A stretch of DNA of 64,000 nt from Pseudomonas sp. B6002 (GTDB lineage: Bacteria; Pseudomonadota; Gammaproteobacteria; Pseudomonadales; Pseudomonadaceae): positions 1-64,000 of the forward strand of contig NZ_JACAOY010000014.1 of NCBI RefSeq assembly GCF_013385985.1. The letters run 5' to 3'. The notes beneath the pieces are model-generated. The model ran no database searches. It worked only from the letters and a program-made list of their open reading frames with translations, and was not told the DNA's origin. A program made the translations under genes and the position numbers. Of this stretch, positions 7,782 through 24,366 are shown in pieces; the stretch's first letter is position 1, and the number at the start of each line of letters is the position of its first letter.

Positions 7782-8447
7782 TCAATTGAGCGGCTTTGCC
7801 AGCAAGGCCGCCATCTTCACCAGGTCCGCCAACGAGCGGGCCTTCATCTTTCGCATGGCTTTGCCGCGATGGGCCTTGACCGTGATCTCGCTGATATCCA
7901 GGTCCGCTGCAATCACCTTGTTCATATGGCCGGCGACCACCATGGCCATCACTTCCTGCTCCCGGGGCGTCAGGCTGGCGTACGCAGTTTGCAGAAGGCG
8001 CAGGTGATCCTGCTGGGCCAGGGCGGCGCGGCTGCGCTGCAGGGCATCGGCGATGGCTTGGAGCAATACATCGTCATTGAACGGCTTGGTCAGGAACTCC
8101 ACAGCCCCGGCTTTCATGGCGCGCACGGTGAGGGGGATGTCGCCGTAGCCGGTGATGAAAATGATCGGCGTGTCGGGGCGTTCGTTGGCGATGGCCGCTT
8201 GCAGGTCCAGGCCGTTGAGGTCGGGCAGGTTGATGTCCAGCACCAGGCAACTGGGCACCTGTGTGCGCGGTTGGGCGAGAAACTCCTGGGCCGACTCGAA
8301 CAGGCGCGGCTGCCATTGGGCGTAGCGAATCAACAGTTCCAGAGACTCGCGCACGGAAATGTCATCGTCTACCACGAACACGATGGGAGAGGTGTCAGTC
8401 ATCGGCGCAGCTCTGCGTTCATGGGCCATCAGGTGGGTTGAGTGCAT
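7782..8447 (-). CDS. FixJ-family response regulator (receiver plus LuxR-type HTH)
   Basis: The 221-residue regulator has a receiver domain about 20-140 with acidic pocket VVDDD, phosphoacceptor D71 (CLVLDINLPDLNG) and lysine in FLTKPF. Its C-terminal LuxR/FixJ HTH includes LTPREQEVMAMVVAGHMNKVIA and ISEITVKAHRGKAM. The start at 8447 has a perfect AGGAGG 7 nt upstream; an internal ATG (16 codons in) is less supported. It lies 25 nt after the stand-alone receiver in an operon with the PAS kinase, so phosphorylation by that kinase is expected. I infer that it binds the shared operator found upstream of this operon and five nearby genes. Confidence 0.93.
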   Translation of the reverse strand: MHSTHLMAHERRAAPMTDTSPIVFVVDDDISVRESLELLIRYAQWQPRLFESAQEFLAQPRTQVPSCLVLDINLPDLNGLDLQAAIANERPDTPIIFITGYGDIPLTVRAMKAGAVEFLTKPFNDDVLLQAIADALQRSRAALAQQDHLRLLQTAYASLTPREQEVMAMVVAGHMNKVIAADLDISEITVKAHRGKAMRKMKARSLADLVKMAALLAKPLN

Positions 8448-8472: not shown

Positions 8473-8844
8473 TCAATCAAGTGGAATGGCCGCACTCAGT
8501 GCCCTGAGCAATTGTGCTTCGCTGAAGGGCTTCATCAGACAATCCACGGCGCCTGAGGCCAGCAGCCCAGGGCGGTCGCCGGCATCACCATGGGCGGTGA
8601 TGAACACCACCGGAATGGCATGGCCGCGCCGTTTGAGGGCTGCGTGCAGGTCCGGACCAGACATGCCCGGCATTGCCACATCCAGAATCAGGCAGCGGGT
8701 CAGCGCCACACACGGCGAGTCGAGAAATGCCTGGCCGGACGAAAACGCTTCGACGGCAAACCCGAACTCCTTGAGTAGGTCCGGCAAGGATTCACGTACT
8801 GACTCGTCATCATCGACGACGGCCACGAGTAAAGGCCTTTGCAT
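8473..8844 (-). CDS. Stand-alone receiver domain response regulator
   Basis: This 123-residue protein is essentially one CheY-like receiver: acidic pocket VVDDDESVRESL, phosphoacceptor D55 (CLILDVAMPGMSG), FITAHGD and lysine in LMKPF. No output domain follows. The ATG overlaps the stop of the upstream kinase gene (TGATG), so production is coupled. It may compete with the FixJ-like regulator for phosphate or relay it; kinase genes of this soluble PAS type often come with two regulators. Its own target cannot be read from the sequence. Confidence 0.9.
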   Translation of the reverse strand: MQRPLLVAVVDDDESVRESLPDLLKEFGFAVEAFSSGQAFLDSPCVALTRCLILDVAMPGMSGPDLHAALKRRGHAIPVVFITAHGDAGDRPGLLASGAVDCLMKPFSEAQLLRALSAAIPLD

Positions 8845-10763: not shown

Positions 10764-10821
10764 ACCGGTTCTCTATCTACAGGCGCCGTGTAACGAGAAT
10801 GCCCTGTCGCGCGGCGCTCGC

Positions 10822-10841
10822 CCATCATACTTAGGTGTCAG
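10822..10841 (-). promoter_or_regulatory. Predicted FixJ-type operator for the histidine kinase operon
   Basis: On the gene strand this site matches about 14 of 20 positions of YCGAYACCTACGTGCAATCG, and its core ACACCTAAGTATGA closely resembles the MFS site at 13765-13784. It ends 58 nt before the kinase start codon in the same orientation as the other copies, which points to autoregulation (inference). Confidence 0.5.
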
Positions 10842-10863
10842 ATGGCGGCCCGGCGAGGGGCGA

Positions 10864-10883
10864 GCGATACCATCGTGTAATCG
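10864..10883 (+). promoter_or_regulatory. Predicted FixJ-type operator for ohr
   Basis: The sequence GCGATACCATCGTGTAATCG matches 16 of 20 consensus positions and lies 76 nt upstream of the Ohr start, facing the gene. It sits back-to-back with the kinase-operon site 22 nt away in the same divergent intergenic region. Confidence 0.5.
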
Positions 10884-10959
10884 ATGGCAGGCCCGGCGCC
10901 GTGCTGTGATGGCGCTACGCATCTGGCATGCGTATTCCCTCATCCTCTGGAGCTGTTCC

Positions 10960-11376
10960 ATGACTGCCAAGAAAATACTCTATACCGCCAAAGTCCACAC
11001 CACCGGCGCACGCGATGGCGGCACCTCGCGCAGCGACGACGGGCGCCTGGATATCCTGCATTCGCTGCCGGGTTCCAAGGGCAGCGGCACCAACCCCGAG
11101 CAGCTGTTCGCTGCTGGCTGGTCTGCCTGCTTCGACGGTGCCCTGGGGTTGGCGGCGCGCACCTTGAAGGTGGCGCTGCCGGCCGGTGTCGCGATCGATG
11201 CAGAGGTGGATCTGTGCACCGAAGGCGACGCCTACTTCCTGCGTGCGCGCTTGAATATCAGCCTGCCGGGGTTGGAGCGCCACGTGGCGCTGGCGCTGAT
11301 CGAGACGGCCCACCAGACCTGCCCGTACTCCAAGGCGGTACGCGGCAATATCGACGTGGTGCTCAACCTGGTCTGA
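10960..11376 (+). CDS. ohr: Organic hydroperoxide resistance protein (Ohr/OsmC family)
   Basis: This 138-residue thiol peroxidase reduces organic hydroperoxides, with lipoylated proteins or other dithiols as reductants in characterised members. The peroxidatic cysteine is C57 (FAAGWSACFDGAL), the resolving cysteine lies in HQTCPYSKAVRGN, and the catalytic Arg and Glu are in TGARDGG and NPEQLF. The length is normal for Ohr. No MarR-type OhrR gene lies nearby, so the usual Ohr regulator is not local; instead a predicted FixJ-type operator lies upstream. The quinone oxidoreductase 148 nt downstream could be cotranscribed. Confidence 0.92.
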   Translation: MTAKKILYTAKVHTTGARDGGTSRSDDGRLDILHSLPGSKGSGTNPEQLFAAGWSACFDGALGLAARTLKVALPAGVAIDAEVDLCTEGDAYFLRARLNISLPGLERHVALALIETAHQTCPYSKAVRGNIDVVLNLV

Positions 11377-11524
11377 ATGTAAGCCACTGTATCCCGGGCT
11401 GTTTGCGTTACACAGCCATTCAAACAGCCTGCCTGCCGACATGCCGCAGATACATGCGCTGCCCAGCATGACGGCAGGTTTCGGCGCCGTCCGGCGTCGA
11501 ACGATCTTGCAGGCTGTGAAACCT

Positions 11525-12496
11525 ATGAAAGCCGTAGTGGTAAACGCATTTGGAGGCCCTGAGGCATTGGTGGTGAACGACGTTGCACCGGGCCGGCCGG
11601 GGCTCGGGCAAGCGCTGGTACGGGTCATGGCGGCTGGCGTCAATTTTATGGACACCGGCATCCGGCGCGGCCTGGGGCAAGCCAACCCCTTGCCCCTTAC
11701 CCCCGGCGTGGAAGGCGCGGGGGTGATTGCCGCGGTGGGGCCGGGTGTCACCGAGCTGTCTGTTGGCGACCGCGTGGCCTGGCAGTACGTCCCCGGCAGC
11801 TATGCCGAGCAGGTCGTCGCCCCGGTCAGTCAGTTGGTACCGCTGCCGGACGATATCAGCTTCGAAACCGCCGCAGGCCTGATGATGCAGGGCCTGACGG
11901 CCAGCAACCTGGTGCTCCAGGTGCATGCCGTGCAGAAGGGCGACACTGCCTTTGTCCACGCTGCTGCCGGTGGGGTAGGGTTGATGCTCACGCAGATGAT
12001 CAAGTTGCTCGGTGGCAAGGTGATCGGCCGGGTTTCCCATGCCGACAAGGTGGACGCGGTGCTGGCGGCCGGCGCCGATTACGTGGTGATCGGCCGGGCC
12101 CGGGGTATCGCCCGTCAGGTCGAGCGCCTGGTCGGTGAGCACGCGGTGAACGTGGTGTACGACGGCACCGGTGCCGAGGGCTTTGACGAGTCGGTCCGCC
12201 TGCTGGATTACTTTGGCACCCTGGCGTTGTACGGGCCCTTCATGAACCCCCTGGCCCCCATCGATGTCTTCGCCACACCGCGTAGCATCAAGCTCACCTA
12301 TCCCTCGGTCATGCACCATGTGCGCACCCGTGAAGCCCTGCTGGCGCATTCCCGGCAGCTGTTTACCTGGGTGCGCACCGGGCGGCTCACGGTCAAGGTC
12401 GGCCAGCGCTATGCCTTGGCCCAGGCGCACCAGGCCCACCGGGATATCGAGTCACGGCGCAGCATCGGCAAGCTGATCATCCTGACCCAGGAATAA
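11525..12496 (+). CDS. Zinc-independent quinone oxidoreductase (MDR family)
   Basis: The 323-residue NADPH-dependent quinone reductase is of the QOR/zeta-crystallin type. Visible: N-terminal GroES-like fold with GVNFMDTGIRRG, PGVEGAGVIAAVGPGV, and the nucleotide-binding HAAAGGVGLMLTQMIKLLG with the AXXGXXG-type turn. Zinc-ligand cysteines of alcohol dehydrogenases are absent. I start at ATG 11525 (MKAVVVNAFGG), where homology begins; the longer open frame from 11441 lacks support. It follows ohr in the same direction, which fits a role in electrophile or quinone detoxification. Its 3' end overlaps the convergent MFS gene by 20 bases. Confidence 0.9.
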   Translation: MKAVVVNAFGGPEALVVNDVAPGRPGLGQALVRVMAAGVNFMDTGIRRGLGQANPLPLTPGVEGAGVIAAVGPGVTELSVGDRVAWQYVPGSYAEQVVAPVSQLVPLPDDISFETAAGLMMQGLTASNLVLQVHAVQKGDTAFVHAAAGGVGLMLTQMIKLLGGKVIGRVSHADKVDAVLAAGADYVVIGRARGIARQVERLVGEHAVNVVYDGTGAEGFDESVRLLDYFGTLALYGPFMNPLAPIDVFATPRSIKLTYPSVMHHVRTREALLAHSRQLFTWVRTGRLTVKVGQRYALAQAHQAHRDIESRRSIGKLIILTQE

Positions 12497-13706
12497 GCCT
12501 GCGCATGGGACGGTAGCCGCGCCAGATCAGCAGGGCCGCCAGCAACTGGCTGCCGGCATAGAAGGTGAACAGGTCCTGAGGGCGCCAATGCGCGTCGAGC
12601 AGCACACCGGCAACGGTCGGCGACACAATCGCCCCCAGCCGTCCGGTGGCCAGCACCAGGCCCACGCCGCGAGTGCGTACCGGCGTGGCAAACGCCTGAG
12701 GCGCCATCACGAAGAGTGCCGCAATGGCCCCGTAGAGCAACAACCCGGCCACGAAACCTACCGTCGCCGCCAGCGCCGGGTTACGCGTGGCAGTCACCAT
12801 CAGTAGAAGCAGAAGGGCCTCCAGCAACAGGCAGGCCAGCAACAGCCGGTGGCAGCCGCACCGATTGGCCGCCAGCCCCACCAACAAGGCGCCGAGCATG
12901 CCGCCGACCGTGAGCAACAGGCCGCCCGTGACGCCATGGTGTTCGGAAAAGCCGCCCTGGGTCAGCAGTATCGGGGTCCAGCTCATCACGAAGTAAAAGC
13001 CGAACATCAGCAAAAAACACACCGTTGCCAACGACAAGGTCCAGAGCCAATGCCCCTGCTGGAACAGATGCCGATAAGCCAGGCGATGGCGGCCCGGTTT
13101 CAGCGACGGCGACTCCCGCAGCCACAGCACGCCAGCCGAGCCGGCGGTCAGGGTCAGCCCGCCGCCGGCCAGGAACACGTAGCGCCAACCCACGCTGTCA
13201 TTGAGCCCATGAGCCAGTGCCCCACCCAGGGTCGCGCCCAAGGCAAACGCCACCGATTGCAAGGCGATTGCCAGGCCGCGCCGGTGGGGCGGGGCGTATT
13301 CATGGGTCAGCACATTGGCGCTCACCAGCACCGCGCCAACGCCGATGCCGGTGAGTACTCGCCAGCACACCAGGCTGCACAGACCCTGGCTCCAGAACGA
13401 CAGCAGCATGGCCACGCCGCTGAGCAGCAAACTGGCGAGCAGCACCGGCCTGCGCCCATGGCGGTCGGCCAACGGCGCCGCAAACAGTGAGCCACAGGCC
13501 ATGCCCACCAGGCTGGCGCTGAGCAGCAGGCCGACCTGTGCGCCATTGAGTGCCCACTGCGCCGCCACCCGGCTGACCGTGAACGCCATGGCCATCGCAT
13601 CCAGGCCATCGATCACGTTGAACAACATGCACAATCCAATCACGGCCCATGCTGCGTGCGCCGTCGCAATGCTGTGGGTGCCCTGGCTGATTGCCTGCTC
13701 ATTCAT
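12477..13706 (-). CDS. MFS transporter, aromatic-acid/H+ symporter-like
   Basis: The 409-residue inner-membrane carrier has 12 predicted helices, the MFS loop motif APLADRHGRRPVLLASLL after helix 2 and an FNVIDGLDAMAMAFTVS first helix typical of the AAHS (aromatic acid:H+ symporter) branch, where helix 1 carries a conserved acidic pair. Uptake of an aromatic acid or export of a drug-like compound are both possible. It is divergent from the epoxide-hydrolase gene, and the two predicted operators in the shared gap abut, so both genes are expected to be controlled together. Confidence 0.85.
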   Translation of the reverse strand: MNEQAISQGTHSIATAHAAWAVIGLCMLFNVIDGLDAMAMAFTVSRVAAQWALNGAQVGLLLSASLVGMACGSLFAAPLADRHGRRPVLLASLLLSGVAMLLSFWSQGLCSLVCWRVLTGIGVGAVLVSANVLTHEYAPPHRRGLAIALQSVAFALGATLGGALAHGLNDSVGWRYVFLAGGGLTLTAGSAGVLWLRESPSLKPGRHRLAYRHLFQQGHWLWTLSLATVCFLLMFGFYFVMSWTPILLTQGGFSEHHGVTGGLLLTVGGMLGALLVGLAANRCGCHRLLLACLLLEALLLLLMVTATRNPALAATVGFVAGLLLYGAIAALFVMAPQAFATPVRTRGVGLVLATGRLGAIVSPTVAGVLLDAHWRPQDLFTFYAGSQLLAALLIWRGYRPMRRLIPGSG

Positions 13707-13764
13707 GGTGGTCTGTTCCCGCGGTTATCGATTGCAAATGGCAGCATTCGCCGGGTGCCCTGGC

Positions 13765-13784
13765 AAGTCATACATAGGTATCGA
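13765..13784 (-). promoter_or_regulatory. Predicted FixJ-type operator for the MFS gene
   Basis: On the gene strand the core TCGATACCTATGTATGA matches the left half of the consensus fully and the kinase-operon site strongly. It ends 58 nt before the MFS start, exactly the spacing seen for the kinase operon. It abuts the epoxide-hydrolase site. Confidence 0.5.
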
Positions 13785-13804
13785 CCGACACCTACGTGCA
13801 ATCG
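13785..13804 (+). promoter_or_regulatory. Predicted FixJ-type operator for the epoxide-hydrolase gene
   Basis: CCGACACCTACGTGCAATCG is a full 20/20 match to the consensus. It lies 74 nt before the start codon at 13879 and directly abuts the oppositely oriented site for the MFS gene, forming a composite inverted repeat across 13765-13804. Confidence 0.6.
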
Positions 13805-13878
13805 TCCCGGGGTGCTCCCGGTGGTCTGATCGCTCCCGCATGGGCCGTCTTGGCCTGCTGACCCACAGGAGAATCATC

Positions 13879-15171
13879 ATGCTTGCTGCTTCGTCCGCGT
13901 TTTTCCGGCTGCGTTGCCGGCTTTCAATGTTCGGCCTTGCCCTGCTTGCCGGCAGCGCAGGTGCCTGGGCCGATTCCAATGCCATTCGCCCGTACCGCAT
14001 TCACGTGGACGAGGCGCAACTGGCCGACCTGCACAAACGTATCGCCGCCACCCGCTGGCCCGACAAAGAGACGGTCAACGACACGTCCCAAGGCGTGCAA
14101 CTGGCCCAGGTACAGGCGCTGGTCAAGTATTGGGGTAACGGCTACGACTGGCGCAAGGCCGAGGCCAGGCTCAACGCGTTGCCGGAGTACATCACCACCA
14201 TTGACGGCGTGGAGATCCAGTTCATTCACGTACGCTCGCGCAACCCCAATGCCATGCCGCTGATTCTGACCCACGGCTGGCCGGGGTCACAATTCGAGTT
14301 CCTCAAGACCATCGGCCCGCTCACCGACCCCGTAGCCTATGGTGGCCGCATCGAAGACTCGTTCGATGTGGTGATCCCCTCGATCCCCGGCCATGGTTTT
14401 TCCGGCAAACCCACCGAGCTGGGCTGGGGCCCCGACCGAGTGGCCAAGGCCTGGGATGTGCTGATGAAGCGCCTGGGCTACCGTCACTATGTGTCCCAGG
14501 GCGGTGACCATGGTTCGGTGATCTCCGATGCGCTGGGCCGCCTGTCGCCGCCCGGCCTGCTGGGGATCCACCTGAACATGCCGGCCACCGTGCCACCGGA
14601 ACTGGTCAAGCCGATCAACAGCGGCGAACCGGCCCCGGCCACGCTGACCGATGCCGAGCGCACGGCTTACACCGCACTGAGTACCTTCTTTGGGCGCAAC
14701 GCCGCCTATGGCGCGATGATGGTGACCCGTCCGCAAACCATCGGCTACCTGCTGGCCGATTCGCCCGCCGGCACGGCAGCCTGGATGTACGAGAAATTTG
14801 CTGCCTGGACCGACAGTGACGGCCAGCCCGAACGCGTGCTCAGCCGTGATGAGATGCTCGACGACATCAGCCTGTACTGGCTGACCAATACCGGCGCGTC
14901 CTCCTCACGGTTCTACTGGGAAAACAACAACAATAATTTCAGCGCCGCGGCGCAGAAGACCGACACCATCAAGGTGCCGGTGGGCATCACCGTGTTTCCC
15001 CACGAGATCTACCAGGCGCCGAAAACCTGGGCGCAGCGCGCGTATCCGTCGTTGTCCTACTACAGCCAGGTCAGCAAGGGCGGGCACTTCGCCGCGTGGG
15101 AACAGCCGCAGTTGTTCAGCGAAGAGTTGCGCGAGGCGTTCCGCCCCTTGCGTGCTGCGGCTAAGCCGTAA
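13879..15171 (+). CDS. Secreted epoxide-hydrolase-family alpha/beta hydrolase
   Basis: The 430-residue protein has a signal-like N-terminus (about 1-34, ending GAWA), the EHN domain of microsomal-type epoxide hydrolases (IRPYRIHVDEAQLADLHKRI) and the alpha/beta core. Visible catalytic elements: oxyanion-hole THGWPGS, nucleophile Asp about 210 in SQGGDHGSV, general-base His about 403 in KGGHFAAWEQP. Family members open epoxides by an Asp-ester mechanism. Its start follows AGGAGAATC. A periplasmic location is unusual for the cytosolic bacterial relatives but is common in this subfamily. A strong predicted operator lies upstream and the 3' end overlaps the convergent regulator gene by 11 bases. 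Confidence 0.88.
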   Translation: MLAASSAFFRLRCRLSMFGLALLAGSAGAWADSNAIRPYRIHVDEAQLADLHKRIAATRWPDKETVNDTSQGVQLAQVQALVKYWGNGYDWRKAEARLNALPEYITTIDGVEIQFIHVRSRNPNAMPLILTHGWPGSQFEFLKTIGPLTDPVAYGGRIEDSFDVVIPSIPGHGFSGKPTELGWGPDRVAKAWDVLMKRLGYRHYVSQGGDHGSVISDALGRLSPPGLLGIHLNMPATVPPELVKPINSGEPAPATLTDAERTAYTALSTFFGRNAAYGAMMVTRPQTIGYLLADSPAGTAAWMYEKFAAWTDSDGQPERVLSRDEMLDDISLYWLTNTGASSSRFYWENNNNNFSAAAQKTDTIKVPVGITVFPHEIYQAPKTWAQRAYPSLSYYSQVSKGGHFAAWEQPQLFSEELREAFRPLRAAAKP

Positions 15172-18010
15172 CCTCACCCAGGCGTGCCTGTAGCTGGCGC
15201 AAGTCCTGGGTGTCGAATCCCTCTGAAAATTGCTCGCGGCACTGGTTCAGCAACTGTTGGGCCTCGATGCCGCGACCTTGTTTGTGCCACAGCGCAGCCA
15301 AGTCCATCGCGCTGCGCAGCGTCCAACTGCGTGAGCCCTGTTGTTGGCTCAGTGCCAGGGATTCTTCCAGCAGGGCCTCGGGGCTGGCGTGAATACTGGC
15401 CTGGATACGCAACAGCTCGGGCAAGGCAAACGCATCGCCGCTGTGACGGCAATGCGCAATGGTGGCCTCGACCTGCGCCCGTGCCTTATCGAACTGACCG
15501 CCGAGGATCAGGCCTTCGACCAGGGCCATTTCCAGGGTTGTGGTCAGTAACTCGTAACGCATGGTGTGCAGACGTGCCAGTGTTTCTTCCAGCACGTTGA
15601 CGGCATCGCCCGGTTGCCCTTTGCGAATATCGATGGCGGCGCCGATCCCCATGGCGGCCGCGACATACGGGCCGAATGCATTGGCCTGGGCGATAGACCG
15701 GAAGGTTTCCAGACCGTCGACGGCCCTTTCCAGGTCGCCGGTCCAGATGTAGATCTGCAGGGTCCACACCAACGCGATGCAGTAGGTGGCCGCATGGTCG
15801 AGGGTGGCGGCTTGCGCCTCGACCTGTTGTGCGCCCAGTCGGGCCTGATCGGGGAACCCCATCAGCCACAGCGTGCGGGCCAGGGCCAGGCCGGTGCGGT
15901 TGCGGTGGTCGAAACCATAGTGAATGGTGAGGCTGCGCTCCGATGGCAAGCTGTTGCGCAGCGAGTGCTCCAGTGCCTGGCGTGCGCGTGTCTGGTCGCC
16001 CAGCAGGTGATAGGCAATGCCGGCCAGGGAGGCGGCCACGGCAATAGCTTCGGGCCGGTCGATCAGCGCGCCGACCTCCACCGCACGTTCGGCCCAGGCC
16101 AGTGAGCTGGCAAAGTCGCCGATGCGTTCATAGAAGATCTGCAAACGCCCCAACAGCCGCAGTTGAGAGGCGTGGTCGTCCAGGTTCACGGCAATGTCCA
16201 AGGCGCGCAGCAAGGCTTTTTCCGCCGTTGCGCTGTTGCCTTTGGTGAACATCAGCACCAGGCCCAGCGCGGCTTGCAGTTCCATTTCGGTTGGGGTGCC
16301 GAAGTAACCGAGCTCCAGCAGTTCAATGGCGCGGTTGCACCAGGTGCGGCATTCCACCAGCAGGGAAAAATGCAGGAACAGCTGCGCACTGGCGGCTGCC
16401 AGCGGCAAGGCCAGGCCGGGGTCGCCCTGGGGGCCGAAGCTCCATTCCAGGGCACTGCGAATATTGCCCAACTGACAGCCCAGTCGTGCCGAACTGGCGA
16501 AGATCTGGTGGGGGGTGTCGCCCAGGTGCTTGAGTTGCTCCACGTGGTAGGCCGCGTGGCGAAAGGCCAGGGCGTGTACTTCCTGGGGACCGCGCAGCTG
16601 CAGTTTTTCCCGGGCATAGGCACGGGTCATTTCCAGCAGGCGGTAAGAGGCCGGGAAACTGTCGCGATTGACCGTGACCAACCCTTTGGTGGCCAGCTCA
16701 TCAAGGGTGGCGGCCACTGTGATCGGGTCGATCCAGTCGTCGGCGGTGATCTGGGAAGCGCCGTCGAGGCCAAACGGCCCGACAAACACCGCCAGGCGAT
16801 CAAACACCAGGCGTTCGTCGGTGGACAGCAGGTCGTAGCTCCAATCGAGCATGGAGCGCAGGGTCTGGTGCCGGGGCGAGGCCGTCCGCCGGCCGGCCCA
16901 GCCCAGGGAAAAGCGCTCGCCGAGCAGGGCGTGGGTGGCATGCAGGCCATGCACGGCCACACGCACCGCCGCCAGTTCGATGGGCAGCGCCATGCCTTCC
17001 AGGCGTTGGCACATATCGGCAATCAGGTGCGCATCGCCCGGCGCGAGGGCCAGGGCGGCATTGCTCGACGACATGCGTTCGACAAACAGTTGCACGGCTG
17101 GAAAACTGAGCAGTTGTTCGCCGTTCAGATCCCGCAACTCGGCAGGGAACGCCAGCGGGCTGAGCCGGTGCACGTGCTCACCACGGGCCCGCAGCGGTTC
17201 GCGGCTGGTGGCGAGGATCGCGACCGCCGGGGCGGCGTCCCGGATCTGCTCGACGATGGCGCAGACCGCGTCCACCAGGTGTTCGCAGTTGTCGAGGATC
17301 AGCAGCAACTGCTGCGAGTGCAGGTGCGCGAGCAGCACGAACATCGGCTCTTCGGCTTGCACCGCAATGCCCAGGGAACTGGCGAGGGCAAAAGGCACCA
17401 GGTCGGCATCTTCAACCTGGGCCAGATCGACGAAATGCACGGCGCCTTTCCCGTCGTGGCAGTGGCCGACCTCCACCGCCAGGCTGGTCTTGCCTACGCC
17501 ACCGGGGCCGACGATGGTAAACAGCTTGGGCGGCTGCAGGCGTTCCATCACCAGGGCCACGTCGACGTCGCGCCCGATCAGGCTTGGGCGCGGCGGCAGG
17601 CCGCCGACGGTGCTGGTGACGCGTCTGGTTTTGTGCGGGGCGGGTAGGGCGAGGGGCGAGCGCTCGATCGGCGCGACGAAGGCGTAGCCCACGCCCACTT
17701 GGGTATTGATGTAGCGTGCGCCGTTTTCGCCATCCCCCAGGATGCGGCGCAACCCGGTCATGTGAAAGCGCAGGCTGCCTTCCTCGACGACTATATCGGG
17801 CCACACCAGGTTGATCAGTTCGCGCTTGGACACCACGCGTCCCGGGCGTTCGAGCAGGGCGATCAGCAGGTCGAGGGCACGGCCGCCGATCTCTACGGCC
17901 ACGCCCTGGCAGGTGAGCAACCGCTCAGCAGGCATCACACGGAACGGGCCGAAGGCAAAGTACAGCGTCACGGGGTCGTGCAGGTCGTCAGGGGCGGACG
18001 CCACGGTCAT
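15161..18010 (-). CDS. Winged-helix NTPase transcriptional regulator (AfsR/LAL-like, 949 aa)
   Basis: Residues about 15-115 form an OmpR/PhoB-type winged helix (FGPFRVMPAERLLT, then GRALDLLIALLERPGRVVSK and RYINTQVGVGYAF). A STAND/NB-ARC-like ATPase follows, with Walker A GPGGVGKTSLAVEV and Walker B LLLILDNCEHLVD. The C-terminal half, about 480-940, is alpha-helical and TPR-like. Such proteins act as ATP-gated transcription switches. The ATG at 18010 is used; the alternative GTG one codon upstream is equivalent. It is convergent with the epoxide-hydrolase gene and is the only long regulator between the two operator-bearing clusters. Its ligand and targets are unknown. A weak ACACCTA motif sits about 40 nt upstream. 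Confidence 0.88.
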   Translation of the reverse strand: MTVASAPDDLHDPVTLYFAFGPFRVMPAERLLTCQGVAVEIGGRALDLLIALLERPGRVVSKRELINLVWPDIVVEEGSLRFHMTGLRRILGDGENGARYINTQVGVGYAFVAPIERSPLALPAPHKTRRVTSTVGGLPPRPSLIGRDVDVALVMERLQPPKLFTIVGPGGVGKTSLAVEVGHCHDGKGAVHFVDLAQVEDADLVPFALASSLGIAVQAEEPMFVLLAHLHSQQLLLILDNCEHLVDAVCAIVEQIRDAAPAVAILATSREPLRARGEHVHRLSPLAFPAELRDLNGEQLLSFPAVQLFVERMSSSNAALALAPGDAHLIADMCQRLEGMALPIELAAVRVAVHGLHATHALLGERFSLGWAGRRTASPRHQTLRSMLDWSYDLLSTDERLVFDRLAVFVGPFGLDGASQITADDWIDPITVAATLDELATKGLVTVNRDSFPASYRLLEMTRAYAREKLQLRGPQEVHALAFRHAAYHVEQLKHLGDTPHQIFASSARLGCQLGNIRSALEWSFGPQGDPGLALPLAAASAQLFLHFSLLVECRTWCNRAIELLELGYFGTPTEMELQAALGLVLMFTKGNSATAEKALLRALDIAVNLDDHASQLRLLGRLQIFYERIGDFASSLAWAERAVEVGALIDRPEAIAVAASLAGIAYHLLGDQTRARQALEHSLRNSLPSERSLTIHYGFDHRNRTGLALARTLWLMGFPDQARLGAQQVEAQAATLDHAATYCIALVWTLQIYIWTGDLERAVDGLETFRSIAQANAFGPYVAAAMGIGAAIDIRKGQPGDAVNVLEETLARLHTMRYELLTTTLEMALVEGLILGGQFDKARAQVEATIAHCRHSGDAFALPELLRIQASIHASPEALLEESLALSQQQGSRSWTLRSAMDLAALWHKQGRGIEAQQLLNQCREQFSEGFDTQDLRQLQARLGEVTA

Positions 18011-18072
18011 CACGCTCTCGAAAAGGCAGGGGGGGTGGGGGTTTCAGCATGATAGGTGTTTTAACGCTCCGT

Positions 18073-19287
18073 TCAAGTCGCGACAATCTCGCGGGCGGCG
18101 ACTGCGCTGCGGGTTGCGGGCTTGAGGGCGGGGGTCAGGCACAGCATCAACACCAGCACGGCAAAGAGCATCGCGTAAGCCAGGTTGTAGTTGCCGGTGT
18201 AGTCGCGCAGGGCGCCAAAGCTCAGCGGGCCGAGTGCGGCAATCAGGTAGCCGATAAACAGCATGAACACGGTCCAGGCGCCGGCTTCTGCCGGGGAGTT
18301 GGCGTTGTCCAGGGGCAACGTCATGCCCACGGTGAACGCCATGCCCAGGCCGGTGGACACCAGCAGCACATACAGAGTGGGCCAAGCGCCGGGAGCGAAC
18401 GCCATGCCGGCGGTGCCCAGCAGGGCCAGCAGGGTGCACAGCGCCAACAGGCCACGACGGTCATGGGCTTTGCCTGGGATCATGCCAGCACCGGCGCTGG
18501 CTACCGCAAACACGGCGGTAAACAAGCCCAGCAGGGCTCCGGCGGGCAAGGTCGTCACGGCGGTCTCGGTGGCCGCCGGCGCCAGCCAGGCGAAGAGGGC
18601 ATACACCACAAACTGGCTGGCGCCGAAGTACAGCGCTACCCACCAGGCCTGGGGGTTACACCACGGTAACGGTACCGAGCGAGCGGGGTGTGAGCCGGCG
18701 TTGGCGGTGCTGCCTGCAAAGCGTCGGGCCATCCACCGCCAACTGATCACGGCTGTGATACACAACAGGCTCCACACCCCGGCCCCCACGCGCCAGCTCT
18801 GGGCAAGCTCGGTAATGGGGGCGGTCAGCAATGCAGACAGGGTAGCCCCTACACTGAGGCCTGCGGCATAAATACCCATGAAAAACGCTGGCCGGTGGGG
18901 GAAATGCGCTTTGATCCAGCCGCCGATCAGGGCGCCGGCGATGGCAATGCCAACACTGACCAAAAAGGTGCTGAGCAGCAGGTACGTGGCACTCGGCGAC
19001 ACTGCGCGCAGCAGGCACGCAGCCCCCAGCAACACCAGCGCGGCAATCACACAGCGGTCGGTGCCGAAGCGCCGGCTCAGGTCTGGGGCCAGCAACGCCA
19101 GGACACCCATGCAGACATCCGGGATGGAAGTCAGCAGCGCCGCCTGGGTGAAGCTCAGGTCATAGTGATCCTGGATCAACAGCAGGATCGGGCCCAAGGA
19201 CACGATCGCCGGACGTAAGGCGATGGACAGCACCAGCAGGCCGATGATGGCTGCCAGGCTGTGTTTGTCGGTCTCGGTGGAGGTCAT
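18073..19287 (-). CDS. nimT: CynX/NimT family MFS transporter
   Basis: This 404-residue, 12-helix carrier of the cyanate/nitroimidazole (CynX/NimT) branch has the N-terminal LVLSIALRPAIVSLGPILLLIQ typical of that branch and the loop APDLSRRFGTDRCV. The frame is open far upstream, but homology and hydrophobicity begin at ATG 19287. It is divergent from an AraC-type gene. In E. coli the divergent pair NimR/NimT controls and performs export of 2-nitroimidazole; the same arrangement here supports the name, though the substrate may differ. Confidence 0.82.
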   Translation of the reverse strand: MTSTETDKHSLAAIIGLLVLSIALRPAIVSLGPILLLIQDHYDLSFTQAALLTSIPDVCMGVLALLAPDLSRRFGTDRCVIAALVLLGAACLLRAVSPSATYLLLSTFLVSVGIAIAGALIGGWIKAHFPHRPAFFMGIYAAGLSVGATLSALLTAPITELAQSWRVGAGVWSLLCITAVISWRWMARRFAGSTANAGSHPARSVPLPWCNPQAWWVALYFGASQFVVYALFAWLAPAATETAVTTLPAGALLGLFTAVFAVASAGAGMIPGKAHDRRGLLALCTLLALLGTAGMAFAPGAWPTLYVLLVSTGLGMAFTVGMTLPLDNANSPAEAGAWTVFMLFIGYLIAALGPLSFGALRDYTGNYNLAYAMLFAVLVLMLCLTPALKPATRSAVAAREIVAT

Positions 19288-19389
19288 ATCGGTGTGCCCT
19301 TGAATCGTGGAGTCAGGGCGATCGTAGCAATGTAAAATAACCGACAAATGCCAGCTTCTATCGACAAAGTGACAACCTGAGGCGCCACC

Positions 19390-20205
19390 ATGAAGCACGA
19401 CGCACGCACTGTCGGCGCACCCACCGACCTGAACGGCCGCAGCGAGGATTACCTCGACTACCAGGACGTGCCTCGCGTCATGACGGCGCTGGTGCGCAAC
19501 CAGGCGAGCGGCGAATACAACCCGCCTCATACCCACCACCATGGCCAGTTGTTGTATGCGATCAGTGGGGTGATGCGTGCGCAAGCCGATGGCAGCCTGT
19601 GGTTCTTGCCGCCCAAGCGCGCGTTGTGGATTCCGGCGGGAGTAGTGCATGACCAATTGATGCTGACATCGGTGCAGATGCGCTCGATCTACATCCAGGC
19701 CGATGCCGCCGCCCGCTTCGGGGGGAGCTGTCGGGTGGTGGATGTTTCGTTGTTACTGCGCGAGCTGATCCTGGTGCTGGCCAGTGAGCCGATTGAGTAC
19801 TGCCTGGAGGGTCGCAATGCCCATGTGGTGGCCTTGATTCTGAGCGAACTGGCCGCCGCACGTACGTTGCCGCTGCAGATTCCCTGGCCGCTGGACCGCC
19901 GGTTGCTGGCGGTGTGCAACGCGATACTTGACGCTCCGGGGCAAAGCCATCGGGTTGAATACTGGGCCGACAAGGTGGGGGCCAGTTCGCGGACGTTGAT
20001 CCGCCTGTTCCTCAAGGAAACTGGCCTGACGTACCGTCAGTGGGTGCAGCAGGTGCGTCTGGCCTGTGCCTTGGAGCGTCTGGAAAAGGGCGAGTCCGTT
20101 GGCCGGATCGCCCGGGAGTTGGGTTATGTGAGTGCCAGCGCGTTCAGTGCGATGTTTCGCCGGGCCACGGGCGCCTCACCGCGGGAGTTTGTGGGGGGCG
20201 ACTGA
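19390..20205 (+). CDS. nimR: AraC-family regulator, NimR-like
   Basis: The 271-residue protein has an N-terminal cupin-like domain (YNPPHTHHHGQLLYAISG, LPPKRALWIPAGVVH) and a C-terminal AraC double HTH about 170-268 (WADKVGASSRTLIRLFLKETG and [28 protein letters not shown]). The HTHHHGQ signature is typical of the YeaM/NimR group. It is divergent from the NimT-like transporter, separated by 102 nt, so local control of the transporter is likely. Its 3' end overlaps the convergent histidine kinase gene by 30 bases. Confidence 0.88.
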   Translation: MKHDARTVGAPTDLNGRSEDYLDYQDVPRVMTALVRNQASGEYNPPHTHHHGQLLYAISGVMRAQADGSLWFLPPKRALWIPAGVVHDQLMLTSVQMRSIYIQADAAARFGGSCRVVDVSLLLRELILVLASEPIEYCLEGRNAHVVALILSELAAARTLPLQIPWPLDRRLLAVCNAILDAPGQSHRVEYWADKVGASSRTLIRLFLKETGLTYRQWVQQVRLACALERLEKGESVGRIARELGYVSASAFSAMFRRATGASPREFVGGD

Positions 20206-21069
20206 TTGTGGCAGCGCCAGTTGCGCACACAGGCCCCCGCCAGCGCGGTTGGACAGGGTCAAGGCGCCTTGCAGGCTCTGCGCCAGTTGTTGCGAGATCG
20301 CCAGGCCCAAACCTGTGCCTTTGGTGCTGCGACTGCGGGCGTTATCCAGGCGGTAGAACGGTTTGATCACCTCGGGCAACTGCGCTTCGGGAATGCCGGG
20401 GCCACGGTCAAGGACCTGGATCACCAGGCGTTCGTCTACCAGGGGTTCGACGTTGACCGTGACCTCGCTGCCGAACTTCAGCGCGTTGTCCACCAGGTTG
20501 ACCAGCACCCGGCGCAGGGCATGGGGGCGGGTGTCGATAATGGTGCCGAGTTGCGCCCTCAGTACCACGCTTTGCCCGACATCCTGGTAGTCGAACACCA
20601 GGCTGTCGAGGAACGAATGCAGGTCCACACGGCAACTGGCTTCGACCGTGCCGTCCAGGCTGCGGGCATAGGCCACGCCTTCCTGGACCAGGTGCTGCAT
20701 CTCGCACAGGTCGTTGCACAGCTTGTCCCGCTCCACCGATTCTTCCATGAATTCGGCACGCAGTTTCATGCGGGTGATCGGAGTTTGCAGGTCATGGGAG
20801 ATCGCGGCCAGTAACTGCAGGCGCTCCTGCAAACCGTTGCCGGGCGCGTCGGCCGGCGCGTTGTCAGGAGGCGACGGGCGCAATCCCAGCCAAAGGCAGC
20901 CGAACAGCAATGCCAGTTGCACCATCAATAACGGCGTCAGCCACAGTGACTCGGCCAACGCACTGATTTCAATCGCGAACGCCAGCCCCTGTGCGATCAC
21001 CAGGCAGGCCAGATAGATCAGCGTCAGGGTGCGCGGCCAGCGCGGCGGCTTGAGTTCCATGTGGCTCAC
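20176..21069 (-). CDS. Membrane sensor histidine kinase coupled to catalase
   Basis: The 297-residue kinase has two closely spaced membrane helices (about 14-32 and 43-63) with almost no periplasmic loop and no HAMP domain. HisKA ([22 protein letters not shown]) follows, then an ATPase with [18 protein letters not shown] and [13 protein letters not shown]. It starts at GTG 21069, in a GTGA overlap with the catalase stop, so the two are translationally coupled. No response regulator is adjacent, making it an orphan. A membrane-embedded or thiol/redox signal is conceivable but not shown. Confidence 0.9.
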
Positions 21070-22499
21070 CCCAGTCGTTCGATGGCTTGGGCAACACCTG
21101 CGCCGTACGCCGGATCGGCGAGGGTGCAGTGCTGGATATGACGTGTCTTGGCGTCGGCGCTGGCGCCCTGGATCGAGCGTGCCGTGTTGGCAAACAGCAG
21201 CTGTTGTTGCGCCGGACTCATCAGGCGGAACAGCGCACCGGGCTGGGAGAAATAATCGTCATCTTCCCGGTGGTTCCAGTGCGCGGCGCTGCCTTGCAGG
21301 GCCAACGGAGGCTCGCGAAAATCCGCTTGTTCGGCCCACTGGGCCTGGCTGTTGGGCTCGTAGCCCGGGATGCTGCCGGCGTTACCGTCGGTGCGCATCT
21401 GCCCGTCGCGGTGATAGCTGTTTACCGGGCAGCGCGGCGCATTCACCGGGATCTGGTGGTGGTTCACGCCCACGCGGTAGCGCTGTGCGTCGCCATAGGC
21501 AAACAGGCGCGCCTGGAGCATTTTGTCAGGCGAGAAACTGATGCCCGGCACTACGTTGGCGGGGTTGAAGGCGGCTTGTTCGACGTCGGCGAAGTAGTTG
21601 TCGGGGTTGCGATTAAGCTCCAGCAGGCCCACTTCGATCAGTGGGTAATCCCGGTGCGGCCAGACCTTGGTCAGGTCGAAGGGGTTGATCGGGCAGTGGG
21701 CTGCATCGGCCTCGGGCATGACCTGCACATAGAGCTTCCACCGTGGGAAGCGGCCCTCCTCGATGCTGGTATAGAGGTCGCGTTGGGCGCTTTCGCGGTC
21801 CTGTCCGATCACGGCGCTGGCTTGTTCATCGGTGAGGTTGTGGATGCCTTGTTCGGTTCTCCAGGTGAACTTCACCCAGAATCGCTGGTTTGCCGGGCTG
21901 ATGAAGCTGAACGTATGGCTGCCGAAACCATGCATGTGCCGGTAGGACTGCGGCACGCCTCGGTCGCTCATCACAATCGTGACCTGGTGCAGGGCTTCGG
22001 GCAGCAGGGTCCAGAAGTCCCAATTATTGCGGGCGCTGCGCATGTGGGTGCGAGGGTCGCGTTTGACCGCGTGATTGAGGTCGGGGAATTTCAAGGGGTC
22101 GCGCAGGAAGAACACCGGGGTGTTATTGCCCACCAGGTCCCAGTTGCCTTGGGCAGTGTAGAACTTGATGGCAAAGCCGCGGATATCACGCTCGGCATCC
22201 GCCGCCCCGCGCTCGCCCGCCACTGTGGAAAAACGCACGAACACTTCTGTGGTCTTGCCGATGTGCGAGAACAGGTCGGCCTTGGTGAAGTGGCTGATGT
22301 CATGGGTGACGGTGAACGTGCCGAACGCGCCGGAGCCCTTGGCGTGCATGCGGCGCTCCGGAATCACCTCGCGGTCGAAGTGGGCGAGTTTTTCCAGCAA
22401 CCACACGTCCTGCAACAACACGGGGCCGCGGGGGCCGGCAGTCTGCGAGTGGTTGTTGTCGACCACCGGTGCGCCGGCGGCTGTGGTCAGTTTTTTCAT
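21066..22499 (-). CDS. Monofunctional haem catalase, small-subunit type
   Basis: The 477-residue enzyme dismutates hydrogen peroxide. Visible: catalytic-His region [15 protein letters not shown] (His about 52), the distal-Asn region [13 protein letters not shown], and the proximal haem-tyrosine motif [14 protein letters not shown]. No secretion signal is present, so it is cytoplasmic. Length fits small-subunit (clade 3) catalases. It overlaps the downstream histidine kinase by four bases and has a 20/20 predicted operator 60 nt upstream, unlike typical OxyR-governed catalase genes, where an OxyR gene or site would be expected. OxyR control is not excluded. Confidence 0.95.
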
Positions 22500-22559
22500 G
22501 CGCGAGTCCCCTGATGTCTGGTTGTTGTGTCACATCAAAACAGAGCACCCGGGGCAGGG

Positions 22560-22579
22560 CGATTGCACGTAGGTATCGA
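22560..22579 (-). promoter_or_regulatory. Predicted FixJ-type operator for catalase
   Basis: The gene strand reads TCGATACCTACGTGCAATCG, a full match to the consensus and nearly identical to the site before the epoxide-hydrolase gene 8.8 kb away. It ends 60 nt before the catalase start codon and lies between catalase and the upstream ohr-like gene. Confidence 0.6.
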
Positions 22580-22590
22580 CTGACGCACCT

Positions 22591-23007
22591 TCAGGCGAGC
22601 GTAAAGCTGACCTCGATGTTGCGACGGGTGGCTTTGGAGTAAGGGCAGTTCTGGTGAGCGGCTTCGATCAATTGCTGGGCGGTGTCCGCTTCGATGTCAG
22701 GCAATGAAACGTTGATGCGCGCTTGCAGGAAAAAGCCTTGCTCACCGTGCAACAAATCAACGTGAGCGTCCACGGCCGCCGTGGCCGGGAAACTGATCTT
22801 GCGGGCGTTGCAGGCGTGGCGCAGGGCGCCCAGGAATGAGGCCGACCAGCACACCGCGAACAGTTGCTCGGGGTTGGTGCCGTTGCCGGGCGCCCCAGGC
22901 GGCGACAGTTTGACCCGCAGCCGGCCATCATCGCTTTGGCCGCTGCCCTCACGACCGCCGGTGGTGCGGGTGTGGCCGGAGTAAAGAACTTTTTCGATGC
23001 TCAACAT
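22591..23007 (-). CDS. Ohr/OsmC-family protein with Cys-to-Ser change at the peroxidatic position
   Basis: The 138-residue paralogue of the Ohr at 10960 shares the same fold, NPEQLF glutamate (E47), GGREG arginine (R19) and C-terminal cysteine C121 in HQNCPYSKATRRN. At the peroxidatic position it reads VCWSASFLGAL: residue 57 is serine (codon TCA), and a cysteine appears four residues earlier (C53). Peroxidase activity is therefore doubtful unless C53 substitutes. It lies between catalase and the sigma-like gene on the same strand. Sensing, chaperone-like or altered chemistry are possibilities; none is shown. Confidence 0.85.
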   Translation of the reverse strand: MLSIEKVLYSGHTRTTGGREGSGQSDDGRLRVKLSPPGAPGNGTNPEQLFAVCWSASFLGALRHACNARKISFPATAAVDAHVDLLHGEQGFFLQARINVSLPDIEADTAQQLIEAAHQNCPYSKATRRNIEVSFTLA

Positions 23008-23043
23008 GGACTGTCCTGGAAGCTGGCGGCGTTGGGGGTGGGG

Positions 23044-23415
23044 TCAGATAGCCCACAGGATGTCGGGCGGGTTCAACAGAGGGACGACGGTGTTGGCATG
23101 CAGATGGCTGAGCAAGGTGCCGCGCGCGATATCCAGCAACCAGGCGCGAAAGGGCAGACCGGGGTTGTAGTGGGCACGGTTTTCCAGGAGTGTCTTGAAG
23201 GCGTGTTGGACCAGGTACTCGACCTGTTCCGGGCGAACTCTTCCCGCTTGCACCTGACCCTCATAAAACGCGCTGAGCAGCGGCGTGACCTGGGTGGACA
23301 GTCGCCGCGAAGCACCGCGGTCACCGTTGACGACATTCGCCATCAAGGTGCGCAGCGCTTCATTGGCGAGTCGATCAACCTTGCACAGGCAACTGGCGCG
23401 ATACCCTTCGGTCAT
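23044..23415 (-). CDS. Sigma-70 region-2-like small protein without region 4
   Basis: The 123-residue protein resembles the region 2 core of ECF sigma factors: PLLSAFYEG, then VEYLVQHAFKTLLENRAHYNP and PFRAWLLDIARGTLLSHLH, the pattern used for core-polymerase and -10 contact. It ends right after this block, so the region 4 HTH that reads -35 elements is absent. A GAGGG element precedes the ATG. It could be a degenerate sigma, a core-binding modulator or a regulator acting through other proteins. It lies 37 nt upstream of the ohr-like gene and downstream of the creatininase gene on the same strand. Confidence 0.65.
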   Translation of the reverse strand: MTEGYRASCLCKVDRLANEALRTLMANVVNGDRGASRRLSTQVTPLLSAFYEGQVQAGRVRPEQVEYLVQHAFKTLLENRAHYNPGLPFRAWLLDIARGTLLSHLHANTVVPLLNPPDILWAI

Positions 23416-23494
23416 GATGGCATCCCTCTTGAATGCTGACGGTGGTGAGCCTCAAGGGTGATGCCTTGCCGGTGATACGGCCAGTTATGTGCTG

Positions 23495-24274
23495 TTAGCA
23501 GTTGTTAGTCGAACCGCTGGCCGCGCCGAACGGTGCCGTTTCCCGACTGAATGCCTCCAGCTCCTTGACCAGCCCGAGGGCTGCGAGCAGGACCAGTTCG
23601 CGGCCTTTATCCGGCGTTGCCTGGCCCGGGTCGGAGCCCATGCGGCCATCCGGGAAGCGCGAGCGGAAGTCGTGAGCCTCGCGGATCGGACCGGAGTTGG
23701 CGATTTTCGGCGAATACTCTGCCGACTTGATCGCGTCTGGATAAGCCCACTGCGTCACGGCAATTTCCGAAGGCGTGGCATGAATGCCATGCCCGCTAGG
23801 GAATTGCTGGTTGGCCAGTGCGCCCACGCCTTCCAGGTCCCACCAGTTCGTCAGTTTCAAGGCAAACCCGGCAGGCCGCCTGGCGAAGCTGGCTTCGGCA
23901 TACAGCTGGGAAAACGCGGCCTCAATCGACGCGATATTGCCGCCGTGGCCATTGAGGAAATAGATCTTCTCGAAGCCGTGTGCCACCAGCGAGCGGGTCC
24001 AGTCTTCGATGGCGGCAATAAAGGTCGAGGGGCGCAGCGTGATGGTGCCGGGAAAGCCGAGGTGATGCTGTGCCATGCCGATGTTGAAAGTGGGGGCGAT
24101 CAGGATATCGGCGGATTCCTGGGCGTGATGCGCAATGATCTGCGGGCACATCCAGTCGGTGCCCAGCAGGCCGATGGGGCCGTGCTGTTCGTTGGAGCCG
24201 ATGGGGATGACGATGGTACGGCTGCGCTGCAGGAATGTCTCGATTTCAGACCAGGTCGACAGATGTAAAAGCAT
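23495..24274 (-). CDS. Creatininase family amidohydrolase
   Basis: The 259-residue protein belongs to the creatininase/MftE/ArfB metal-dependent hydrolase family. Metal-binding motifs: GSNEQHGPIGLLGTDW near the N-terminus, LNGHGGN in the middle and HATPSEIA. The family hydrolyses cyclic amides or formamides or trims peptides. No creatine-pathway genes or mycofactocin genes are nearby, so the substrate is open. It has a strong predicted operator 72 nt upstream, placing it in the detoxification set. Confidence 0.85.
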   Translation of the reverse strand: MLLHLSTWSEIETFLQRSRTIVIPIGSNEQHGPIGLLGTDWMCPQIIAHHAQESADILIAPTFNIGMAQHHLGFPGTITLRPSTFIAAIEDWTRSLVAHGFEKIYFLNGHGGNIASIEAAFSQLYAEASFARRPAGFALKLTNWWDLEGVGALANQQFPSGHGIHATPSEIAVTQWAYPDAIKSAEYSPKIANSGPIREAHDFRSRFPDGRMGSDPGQATPDKGRELVLLAALGLVKELEAFSRETAPFGAASGSTNNC

Positions 24275-24346
24275 GGTGAGGCCTCACGGTTCAGTGATGG
24301 AACATCAAGTGTGCGTGGGCATCACATCACGGGGTTTCGCAAGGCG

Positions 24347-24366
24347 ACATTGCACGTAGGTGTCGA
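24347..24366 (-). promoter_or_regulatory. Predicted FixJ-type operator for the creatininase-family gene
   Basis: On the gene strand TCGACACCTACGTGCAATGT matches 18 of 20 consensus positions and ends 72 nt before the start codon. It lies in the divergent gap shared with the AI-2E-family transporter at 24447 but faces the creatininase gene. Confidence 0.57.

Follow-up and report, generated by a model that had tools for sequence, protein, structure and literature searches.

A shared 20-bp operator and a FixJ-like response regulator in a putative detoxification regulon of Pseudomonas sp. B6002

The question raised by this locus is whether a 20-bp motif repeated upstream of six genes or operons is a set of operators, and which protein would read them. 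The locus lies in a 64,000-nucleotide stretch of Pseudomonas sp. B6002 (assembly GCF_013385985.1, contig NZ_JACAOY010000014.1, positions 1 to 64,000, forward strand; the window), and includes genes for a sensor histidine kinase, a FixJ-like response regulator, an Ohr-family peroxiredoxin (ohr1), an MFS transporter (mfs), an epoxide hydrolase (EHN), a catalase and a creatininase-family amidohydrolase. The initial annotation compared the motif to the FixJ box GTAMGTAG and proposed an undescribed circuit handling peroxides, epoxides and quinones under the FixJ-like regulator, with the kinase gene autoregulated. The regulator and the regulon look largely right, the FixJ box wrong and the inclusion of quinones too wide. 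Judging from the comparisons below, the FixJ-like regulator (7782-8402) is likely to use all six sites as its operators and would activate detoxification genes from them in a StyR-like class II manner. The candidate operators are listed with their matches to YCGAYACCTACGTGCAATCG, scores from a position weight matrix (PWM) and distances to the start codon.

10822..10841, minus strand: operator of the kinase-receiver-fixJ operon, GACACCWARGTATSAT type (14/20; 18.7 bits, 20.0 by the non-Pseudomonas PWM; 58 nt)
10864..10883, plus strand: operator of ohr1 (16/20; 29.9 bits; 76 nt)
13765..13784, minus strand: weak site facing mfs, also the upstream palindrome of the EHN tandem operator (13/20; 5.7 bits by the non-Pseudomonas PWM; 58 nt)
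13785..13804, plus strand: main operator of EHN (20/20; 32.7 bits; 74 nt)
22560..22579, minus strand: operator of the catalase gene (20/20; 31.1 bits; 60 nt)
24347..24366, minus strand: operator serving the creatininase-family gene together with those that follow it (18/20; 29.5 bits; 72 nt)

All six 20-mers were found in the window at the coordinates and on the strands first reported, and the match counts and start-codon distances were likewise reproduced. When up to three mismatches were allowed, the window contained three matches, where shuffled sequences gave an expectation of 0.02. Across the genome of 6.68 Mb, CGAYACCTACGTGCAATC occurred with at most one mismatch in three places, all inside the cluster, and at exactly three mismatches in 16 more places, the ohr site among them. 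The relaxed pattern GAYACCWWNGTRYVATSG, built from relatives, matched with at most one mismatch in five genomic places, again all in the cluster (backwards control two). At up to one mismatch both scans stayed within the cluster, and therefore the genome-wide scatter that had been named at the outset as speaking against a regulon did not occur. With a PWM made from 151 non-Pseudomonas sites, five of the six sites took ranks 1 to 5 in the window (28.3, 27.3, 26.8, 22.9 and 20.0 bits; next match 11.8), and the mfs site came ninth with 5.7 bits. A GATACC palindrome at 62489, a strong match, lies within a 971-codon open frame (61048-63963) at the window edge and was taken as chance.

For footprinting, the flanks of FixJ-bearing loci were fetched and mapped, and the PWM was refined on the upstream regions of 21 loci and used with a threshold of 18 bits; the refinement was made on these same loci, and sites in divergent regions were counted twice. 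The gene order varies among the relatives and the motif stays with the EHN, ohr, catalase, creatininase-family and kinase genes, so that phylogenetic footprinting in pseudomonads, the check suggested initially, spoke for the sites. The score exceeded 18 bits in 17 of 18 EHN upstreams, and the eighteenth (L063) has a 20/20 site farther up. A site was present in all ten upstreams examined of ohr1 homologues and in 11 of 14 of catalase, the other three catalase genes (L056, L060 and L063) sitting directly behind a site-bearing ohr. The creatininase-family upstreams were above 18 bits in 11 of 12 cases, four of these (18.9) through one diverged site type. The kinase operator is weak-looking (14/20) yet strongly conserved: GACACCWARGTATSAT was exact in 23 of the 27 sources scanned, among which L112 repeats L062, and L122 had it at one mismatch. 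Upstreams of the AraC, MFS18073, second kinase, fixJ, ohr2, qor, sigma-like and SARP-like genes reached at most 1.0 bit. The scores were bimodal, 18.9–32.9 bits before most targets versus at most 1.0 bit before non-targets. Of the joint regulon first proposed, the epoxide and peroxide genes carry sites in Pseudomonas; quinone handling is unsupported, because qor is linked only by its position 64 nt behind ohr1, and a site was found in none of ten qor upstreams. Two loci with one-mismatch matches, L021 and L024, were set aside, as neither has an EHN, ohr, catalase, creatininase or kinase relative alongside (L024 has a weak AraC match).

The distribution of the motif was also compared with that of the regulator. 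Among 399 Pseudomonas genomes, a FixJ orthologue with at least 73% identity is present in 17 (20 pass E 1e-60), and the exact pattern GAYACCWWSGTGYAATC was found in 16 of these 17 and in 8 of the 382 without the orthologue. Five of the eight FixJ-less genomes have apparent coding-sequence matches: those of G061, G325, G354 and G377 apparently represent one orthologous coding stretch, as judged by inspection, and that of G215 lies within a 486-codon open frame. The matches of the other three (G124, G173 and G290) are EHN operators. Among EHN orthologues with at least 88% identity, the site was present in all 16 genomes with FixJ and in three of the seven without (hypergeometric probability 35/8855, about 0.004, ignoring genome relatedness). 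It was absent from all seven diverged EHN paralogues (58–67%) examined, which were those with loci among the 17 listed. The seven FixJ-less EHN genomes yielded no relative of ohr, catalase, creatininase or mfs within the 20 kb surrounding EHN. Genome G002 was considered as a case of an unlinked target and rejected: MFS18073 and AraC stand at the end of contig C6, which holds its EHN, and catalase at the start of contig C45, which holds its fixJ, and the two contigs are probably neighbours in one cluster.

A wider sample consisted of 80 named FixJ-relative loci, those kept of at least 508 FixJ relatives. It contained 173 sites of at least 18 bits in 67 loci, compared with a mean of 0.4 and a maximum of 2 for 20 column-permuted PWMs; L107, L109, L110, L112, L114, L120, L127 and L139 apparently duplicate genomes of the 399-genome set. 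No site at 18 bits was found in 358 kb from 19 loci of another FixJ group (49–56% identity). A quick tree was built from 120 FixJ rows, 112 of them different; in it, 101 rows, 87 of them with sites, were parted from 19 rows with none by a branch with a Shimodaira–Hasegawa-like approximate likelihood ratio support of 100. The site-bearing rows belong mostly to Pseudomonadota and Acidobacteriota, with one site-bearing locus each in Gemmatimonadota, Verrucomicrobiota (one of three loci), Armatimonadota, Vulcanimicrobiota and Actinomycetota; outside Pseudomonadota the taxonomy is less sure because many of the loci are metagenome bins. Co-occurrence across genomes and restriction to one FixJ clade both favour the candidate named by the initial annotation, and on these comparisons the FixJ-like protein is the most likely reader of the shared operator. 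One species label in the sample looks doubtful: the FixJ of L114, named Pantoea sp. Ap-967, equals that of G134, which is filed in the window's genus.

The presumed reader is encoded together with its kinase by three genes in the same direction.

7782..8402, minus strand: fixJ-like response regulator, REC and GerE/LuxR helix-turn-helix (HTH) (Pfam Response_reg 4.1e-27, GerE 7e-22)
8473..8847, minus strand: receiver-only response regulator, between kinase and fixJ (Pfam Response_reg 6.9e-25)
8844..10763, minus strand: sensor histidine kinase, three PAS stretches, HisKA and HATPase (Pfam)
10796..10801, minus strand: possible -10 element CATTCT, +21 to +26 from the kinase operator (GCATNCT-like block conserved in relatives)

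The FixJ-like protein has a receiver domain with the phospho-Asp and a GerE HTH, as in NarL/FixJ-type response regulators, and D56 and K106 are each kept in 100 of the 101 clade rows. Its start was placed at the ATG at 8402, from near which relatives align; the gene could also begin farther upstream, at a GTG at 8495. The receiver-only gene shares 4 nt with the 3' end of the kinase gene, and a receiver-like match stands beside fixJ in 20 of 21 mapped loci, L064 being the exception. The protein might, at a guess, be a phosphate sink or shuttle. In the kinase no transmembrane segment was evident (maximum 19-residue hydropathy 1.48), and by analogy with TodS its PAS ligand could be guessed to be of aromatic or epoxide type. 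The operon carries at sequence level the operator of its own targets, as the autoregulation suggested at first would need, and CATTCT would serve as the kinase -10. In five Rhizobium-type loci (L169, L172, L173, L174 and L176) two opposed operators lie just upstream of fixJ, near 9.72–9.79 kb, which suggests direct fixJ autoregulation there. Relatives of a large regulator at 15161-18013 (winged helix, ATPase-like, TPR) adjoin fixJ in many mapped Pseudomonas loci, and an operator was found in none of eight of their upstreams examined.

The core of the operator is an inverted-repeat dyad, GAYACC-WW-SGTRY. The central WWS bases vary and ACGTAG is therefore just one variant, which ruled out the GTAMGTAG box; the dyad fits the StyR/TodT layout instead. 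Of 52 non-redundant sites of Pseudomonas and Rhodanobacteraceae, 20 are followed by TGnTnTGAT beginning at +18 and three by the sequence beginning at +19; it begins nowhere else in the 60 nt examined. The 133 sites of other loci have A at +22 and T at +23 with a frequency of 0.53 each and T at +26 with 0.73, and a -10-like hexamer at +21/+22 is present also outside the Pseudomonas and Rhodanobacter lineage. If transcription starts about 12 nt past the first base of the hexamer, the centre of the dyad would be near -43, a position suggestive of class II activation.

The genes behind the sites in the window, with their -10-like elements, are as follows.

10905..10910, plus strand: -10-like TGTGAT, TGC before it, +22 from the ohr1 site
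10960..11376, plus strand: ohr1, Ohr-family peroxiredoxin (TIGR03561 149.5 bits, cut-off 88.85)
11441..12496, plus strand: qor, NADPH:quinone-reductase-like oxidoreductase (below NCBIfam cut-offs)
12477..13706, minus strand: MFS transporter, aromatic acid/H+ symporter-like (MFS_1 7.3e-48; best NCBIfam model TIGR00895, below its cut-off)
13825..13830, plus strand: -10-like TCTGAT, TGG before it, +21 from the EHN site
13879..15171, plus strand: EHN-family epoxide hydrolase (PF06441 6.3e-39, PF00561 1.1e-7)
21066..22499, minus strand: catalase (PF00199 6.8e-191)
22534..22539, minus strand: -10-like TTTGAT, TGT before it, +21 from the catalase operator
22591..23007, minus strand: ohr2, second Ohr homologue, behind the creatininase-family and sigma-like genes, no site of its own (TIGR03561 144 bits)
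23044..23415, minus strand: small gene similar to sigma-70 region 2, lying between the creatininase-family gene and ohr2 (PF04542 8.7e-6)
23495..24274, minus strand: creatininase-family amidohydrolase (PF02633 1.2e-61)
24321..24326, minus strand: -10-like TGTGAT, TGA before it, +21 from the creatininase operator

The EHN protein carries the EHN domain and the alpha/beta-hydrolase fold of an EHN-type epoxide hydrolase, its activity being putative, and matches solved epoxide hydrolases along its length (nearest PDB entries 5f4z, 2.5e-102, and 4i19, 3.6e-100); its N-terminus looks like a likely signal peptide. The qor gene has no operator of its own and is perhaps co-transcribed with ohr1. In ohr2, Ser replaces the first Cys of ohr1 (WSAS vs WSAC), a position which we take to be that of the reactive Cys of Ohr. 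The sigma-like small protein is similar to sigma-70 in region 2 only, and its gene is kept between the creatininase-family gene and ohr2 in the close relatives L049 to L052.

The mfs site appears to belong to a pair of tandem dyads at EHN, 18 bp apart from centre to centre by manual count. A palindrome of the GATACCWWGGTATC kind, with few changes, adjoins the EHN operator in all 19 EHN upstreams that have the operator, as seen by inspection of the sequences, and is also retained in loci that lack mfs as divergent neighbour (e.g. L056, L059, L088 and L089). The mfs site was read as half of the EHN tandem operator. It may be mainly the upstream half of this double operator, possibly serving mfs too: TGCTGCCAT comes after the mfs site with the usual spacing, on the side towards mfs, both in the window and in loci L049 to L052, and the -10-like hexamer of mfs in the window is TGCCAT.

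Among known systems, the best solved match of the FixJ-like protein was 1yio (1.8e-51), which we take to be StyR (the entry is titled 'response regulatory protein'), ahead of FixJ 5xso (2.3e-41). In PMC5874301, the StyR/TodT operator is given as ATAAACN4GTTTAT and the putative contacts of StyR as Lys175, Val176 and His179. The AC-N4-GT inverted-repeat layout of that operator is shared by the GAYAC-N4-GTRY of the cluster, and the half-sites differ (GAYAC/GTRY vs ATAAAC/GTTTAT). Of the three contact residues reported there, the FixJ-like protein of the window has only the Lys, with Ala for Val176 and Gly for His179 according to a manual alignment; in the clade rows Lys is present in 101 of 101, Ala in 98 and Gly in 97. 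The Ala, at HTH position 177 and aligned to StyR Val176, contrasts with Ile in 17 of the 19 rows of the other FixJ group, whereas Gly at the His179 position does not separate the groups (97/101 vs 19/19). According to PMC2442086, StyR-P activates from STY2 at about -40 from the start and has a further upstream site; the predicted -43 dyad here would resemble STY2.

The kinase and the operon also differ from these systems. TodS has two transmitters and a receiver, whereas the kinase of the window has one HisKA, one HATPase and no receiver match. Unlike StyS/StyR, TodS/TodT and TmoS/TmoT, the operon has a receiver-only gene between kinase and regulator. StyS/StyR belongs to styrene catabolism (Pseudomonas fluorescens ST) and TodS/TodT and TmoS/TmoT to toluene catabolism; no styrene or toluene catabolic genes were recognised among the cluster genes scanned. 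FixL/FixJ of rhizobia is similar in its REC-GerE regulator, and the core of the window's kinase best matches FixL chimeras. The best model for the regulator, the FixJ equivalog NCBIfam NF006900, scored 209.2 bits against a cut-off of 255, and the cluster operator is of neither the GTAMGTAG nor the TAAGTAATTTCCCTTA type described in PMC4999443. Neither fixK nor nifA was found among the cluster genes scanned. Control of ohr and catalase would be expected from OhrR or OxyR regulons; no match to MarR- or LysR-type families was found among the 17 cluster proteins scanned and, unlike in those regulons, shared operators tie ohr and catalase to the presence of FixJ here. Judged from its parts, the circuit would work like StyR, yet it departs from StyR/TodT in operator, contact residues and kinase architecture, and from FixJ as well. 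No account of it was found in the open-licence literature searched, which agrees with its having been called undescribed.

From the presence, conservation and geometry of the sites and their co-occurrence with the regulator we infer a course of events for phosphorylation, binding, sign of regulation, operon membership and inducer. The PAS kinase (8844-10763) would phosphorylate the FixJ-like regulator, perhaps with the receiver-only protein as phosphate sink or shuttle. The phosphorylated dimer would bind GAYACC-WW-SGTRY about 43 bp before the transcription start, beside a weak -10 (often TGnTnTGAT), and activate as class II. It would target EHN through a pair of neighbouring dyads, and also ohr (perhaps with qor), catalase, the creatininase-family gene with the sigma-like gene and ohr2, and MFS; its own kinase-REC-fixJ operon would also be a target, giving positive feedback. 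The likely job would be that a lipophilic reactive compound (for example an epoxide or aromatic, with accompanying peroxides) is hydrolysed, reduced and exported.

Three other explanations were weighed. It is rather doubtful that FixJ represses some of the promoters, notably that of its own operon, giving negative feedback. TATGAT or TATGAC, a possible -10, is present within the kinase and mfs sites, in which case binding would block the polymerase; the kinase operators keep GTATSAT, unlike the GTGYAAT of most enzyme operators, and StyR both activates and represses through different sites (PMC2442086). Against repression, the GCATNCT-like block stands downstream of the kinase site at +21 to +26, the same distance as the hexamers of the enzyme promoters. 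Less probable still, and unlikely on the whole, is that another member of the FixJ/StyR-like family reads the operator, or that several do, the local fixJ being one reader among others. G124, G173 and G290 fit such a reading, since their EHN keeps the full tandem operator with only 47–53% FixJ paralogues in the genome; however, sites occur in the clade of the window's FixJ and in none of the 19 loci of the 49–56% group, and the site is missing from the remaining four EHN orthologues that lack a close FixJ, though three of these four genomes hold paralogues of up to 53%. That the motif is an alternative sigma-factor promoter or a general promoter element instead of an operator is very improbable. 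The fixed orientation, the roughly fixed spacing to the start codon and the sigma-like gene in the cluster would agree with it, but the site is a dyad, often with a separate -10-like element at +21, EHN has two adjacent opposed copies, the presence of the motif follows FixJ, and several stretches with the motif, such as L056, L059, L060, L062 and L063, yielded no sigma-like gene.

Several observations weigh against the preferred reading, that of operators from which the FixJ-like regulator would activate. The mfs site is weak (13/20; 5.7 bits). In G124, G173 and G290 (L272, L273 and L274), whose genomes hold FixJ paralogues of only 47–53% and no close orthologue, the orphan EHN has a full tandem operator and is the sole cluster gene of the 20-kb stretch fetched; these three operators may leave room for a second reader or be relics. 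No unlinked target was found, and co-inheritance of cluster and regulator may yet be the reason for the co-occurrence. G134 has fixJ in a locus with one diverged site and no mapped target gene, and 14 of the 101 clade loci lack a site that reaches 18 bits; five of these 14 lie on contigs shorter than 10 kb. The consensus of the 151 non-Pseudomonas sites, NCGANACCATCGTNCAATNG, is partly circular in its letters because these sites were found with the Pseudomonas PWM, and TGnTnTGAT at +18/+19 is limited to 23 of the 52 non-redundant sites. Finally, kinase relatives outside Pseudomonas have an oriented site within 260 nt in only 4 of 37 cases, a poor test for kinases because the estimated starts recover just two of eight in Pseudomonas.

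Outside Pseudomonas the content of the presumed regulon shifts. In 150 of the 160 open reading frames (ORFs) downstream of sites in the named loci, Pfam domains included alpha/beta hydrolase (25), EHN (22), PAS (16) and response regulators (14), followed by SDR (10), MEDS (5), OsmC (4), glyoxalase-like (4), creatininase (3) and cytochrome P460 (3); a further scan used 75 of the 93 remaining ORFs, and the counts are approximate because ORFs were called by a simple longest-frame rule. An oriented site lay within 260 nt of 14 of 26 EHN and one of six ohr relatives outside Pseudomonas, about 1.6% being expected for a random start, and no catalase or creatininase relatives passing the cut-offs were found in the named loci there. 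EHN is therefore the most frequent enzyme target, regulators often follow the sites, and the peroxide arm looks mainly Pseudomonas-specific.

As a kind, the circuit is a StyR-like two-component regulon; what is surprising about it is that the operator is conserved in more than a single phylum. We tentatively propose an ancient epoxide or aromatic response, in which a StyR-related subfamily with its own operator would extend from Pseudomonas and Rhizobium to Acidobacteriota and five phyla with single loci, with EHN as the commonest enzyme target and with local additions: peroxide enzymes in pseudomonads, and SDRs and glyoxalase-like proteins elsewhere. If the circuit is as described, the EHN orthologues, about 90% identical and preceded by the operator in all 16 genomes that have the regulator versus three of seven that do not, would provide a case of operator-regulator co-evolution. 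One operator sequence would then be enough to list what this uncharacterised two-component system controls in several phyla, an operator-bearing reporter would make its inducer directly testable, and EHN hydrolases, creatininase-like proteins and SDRs would gain a common physiological setting.

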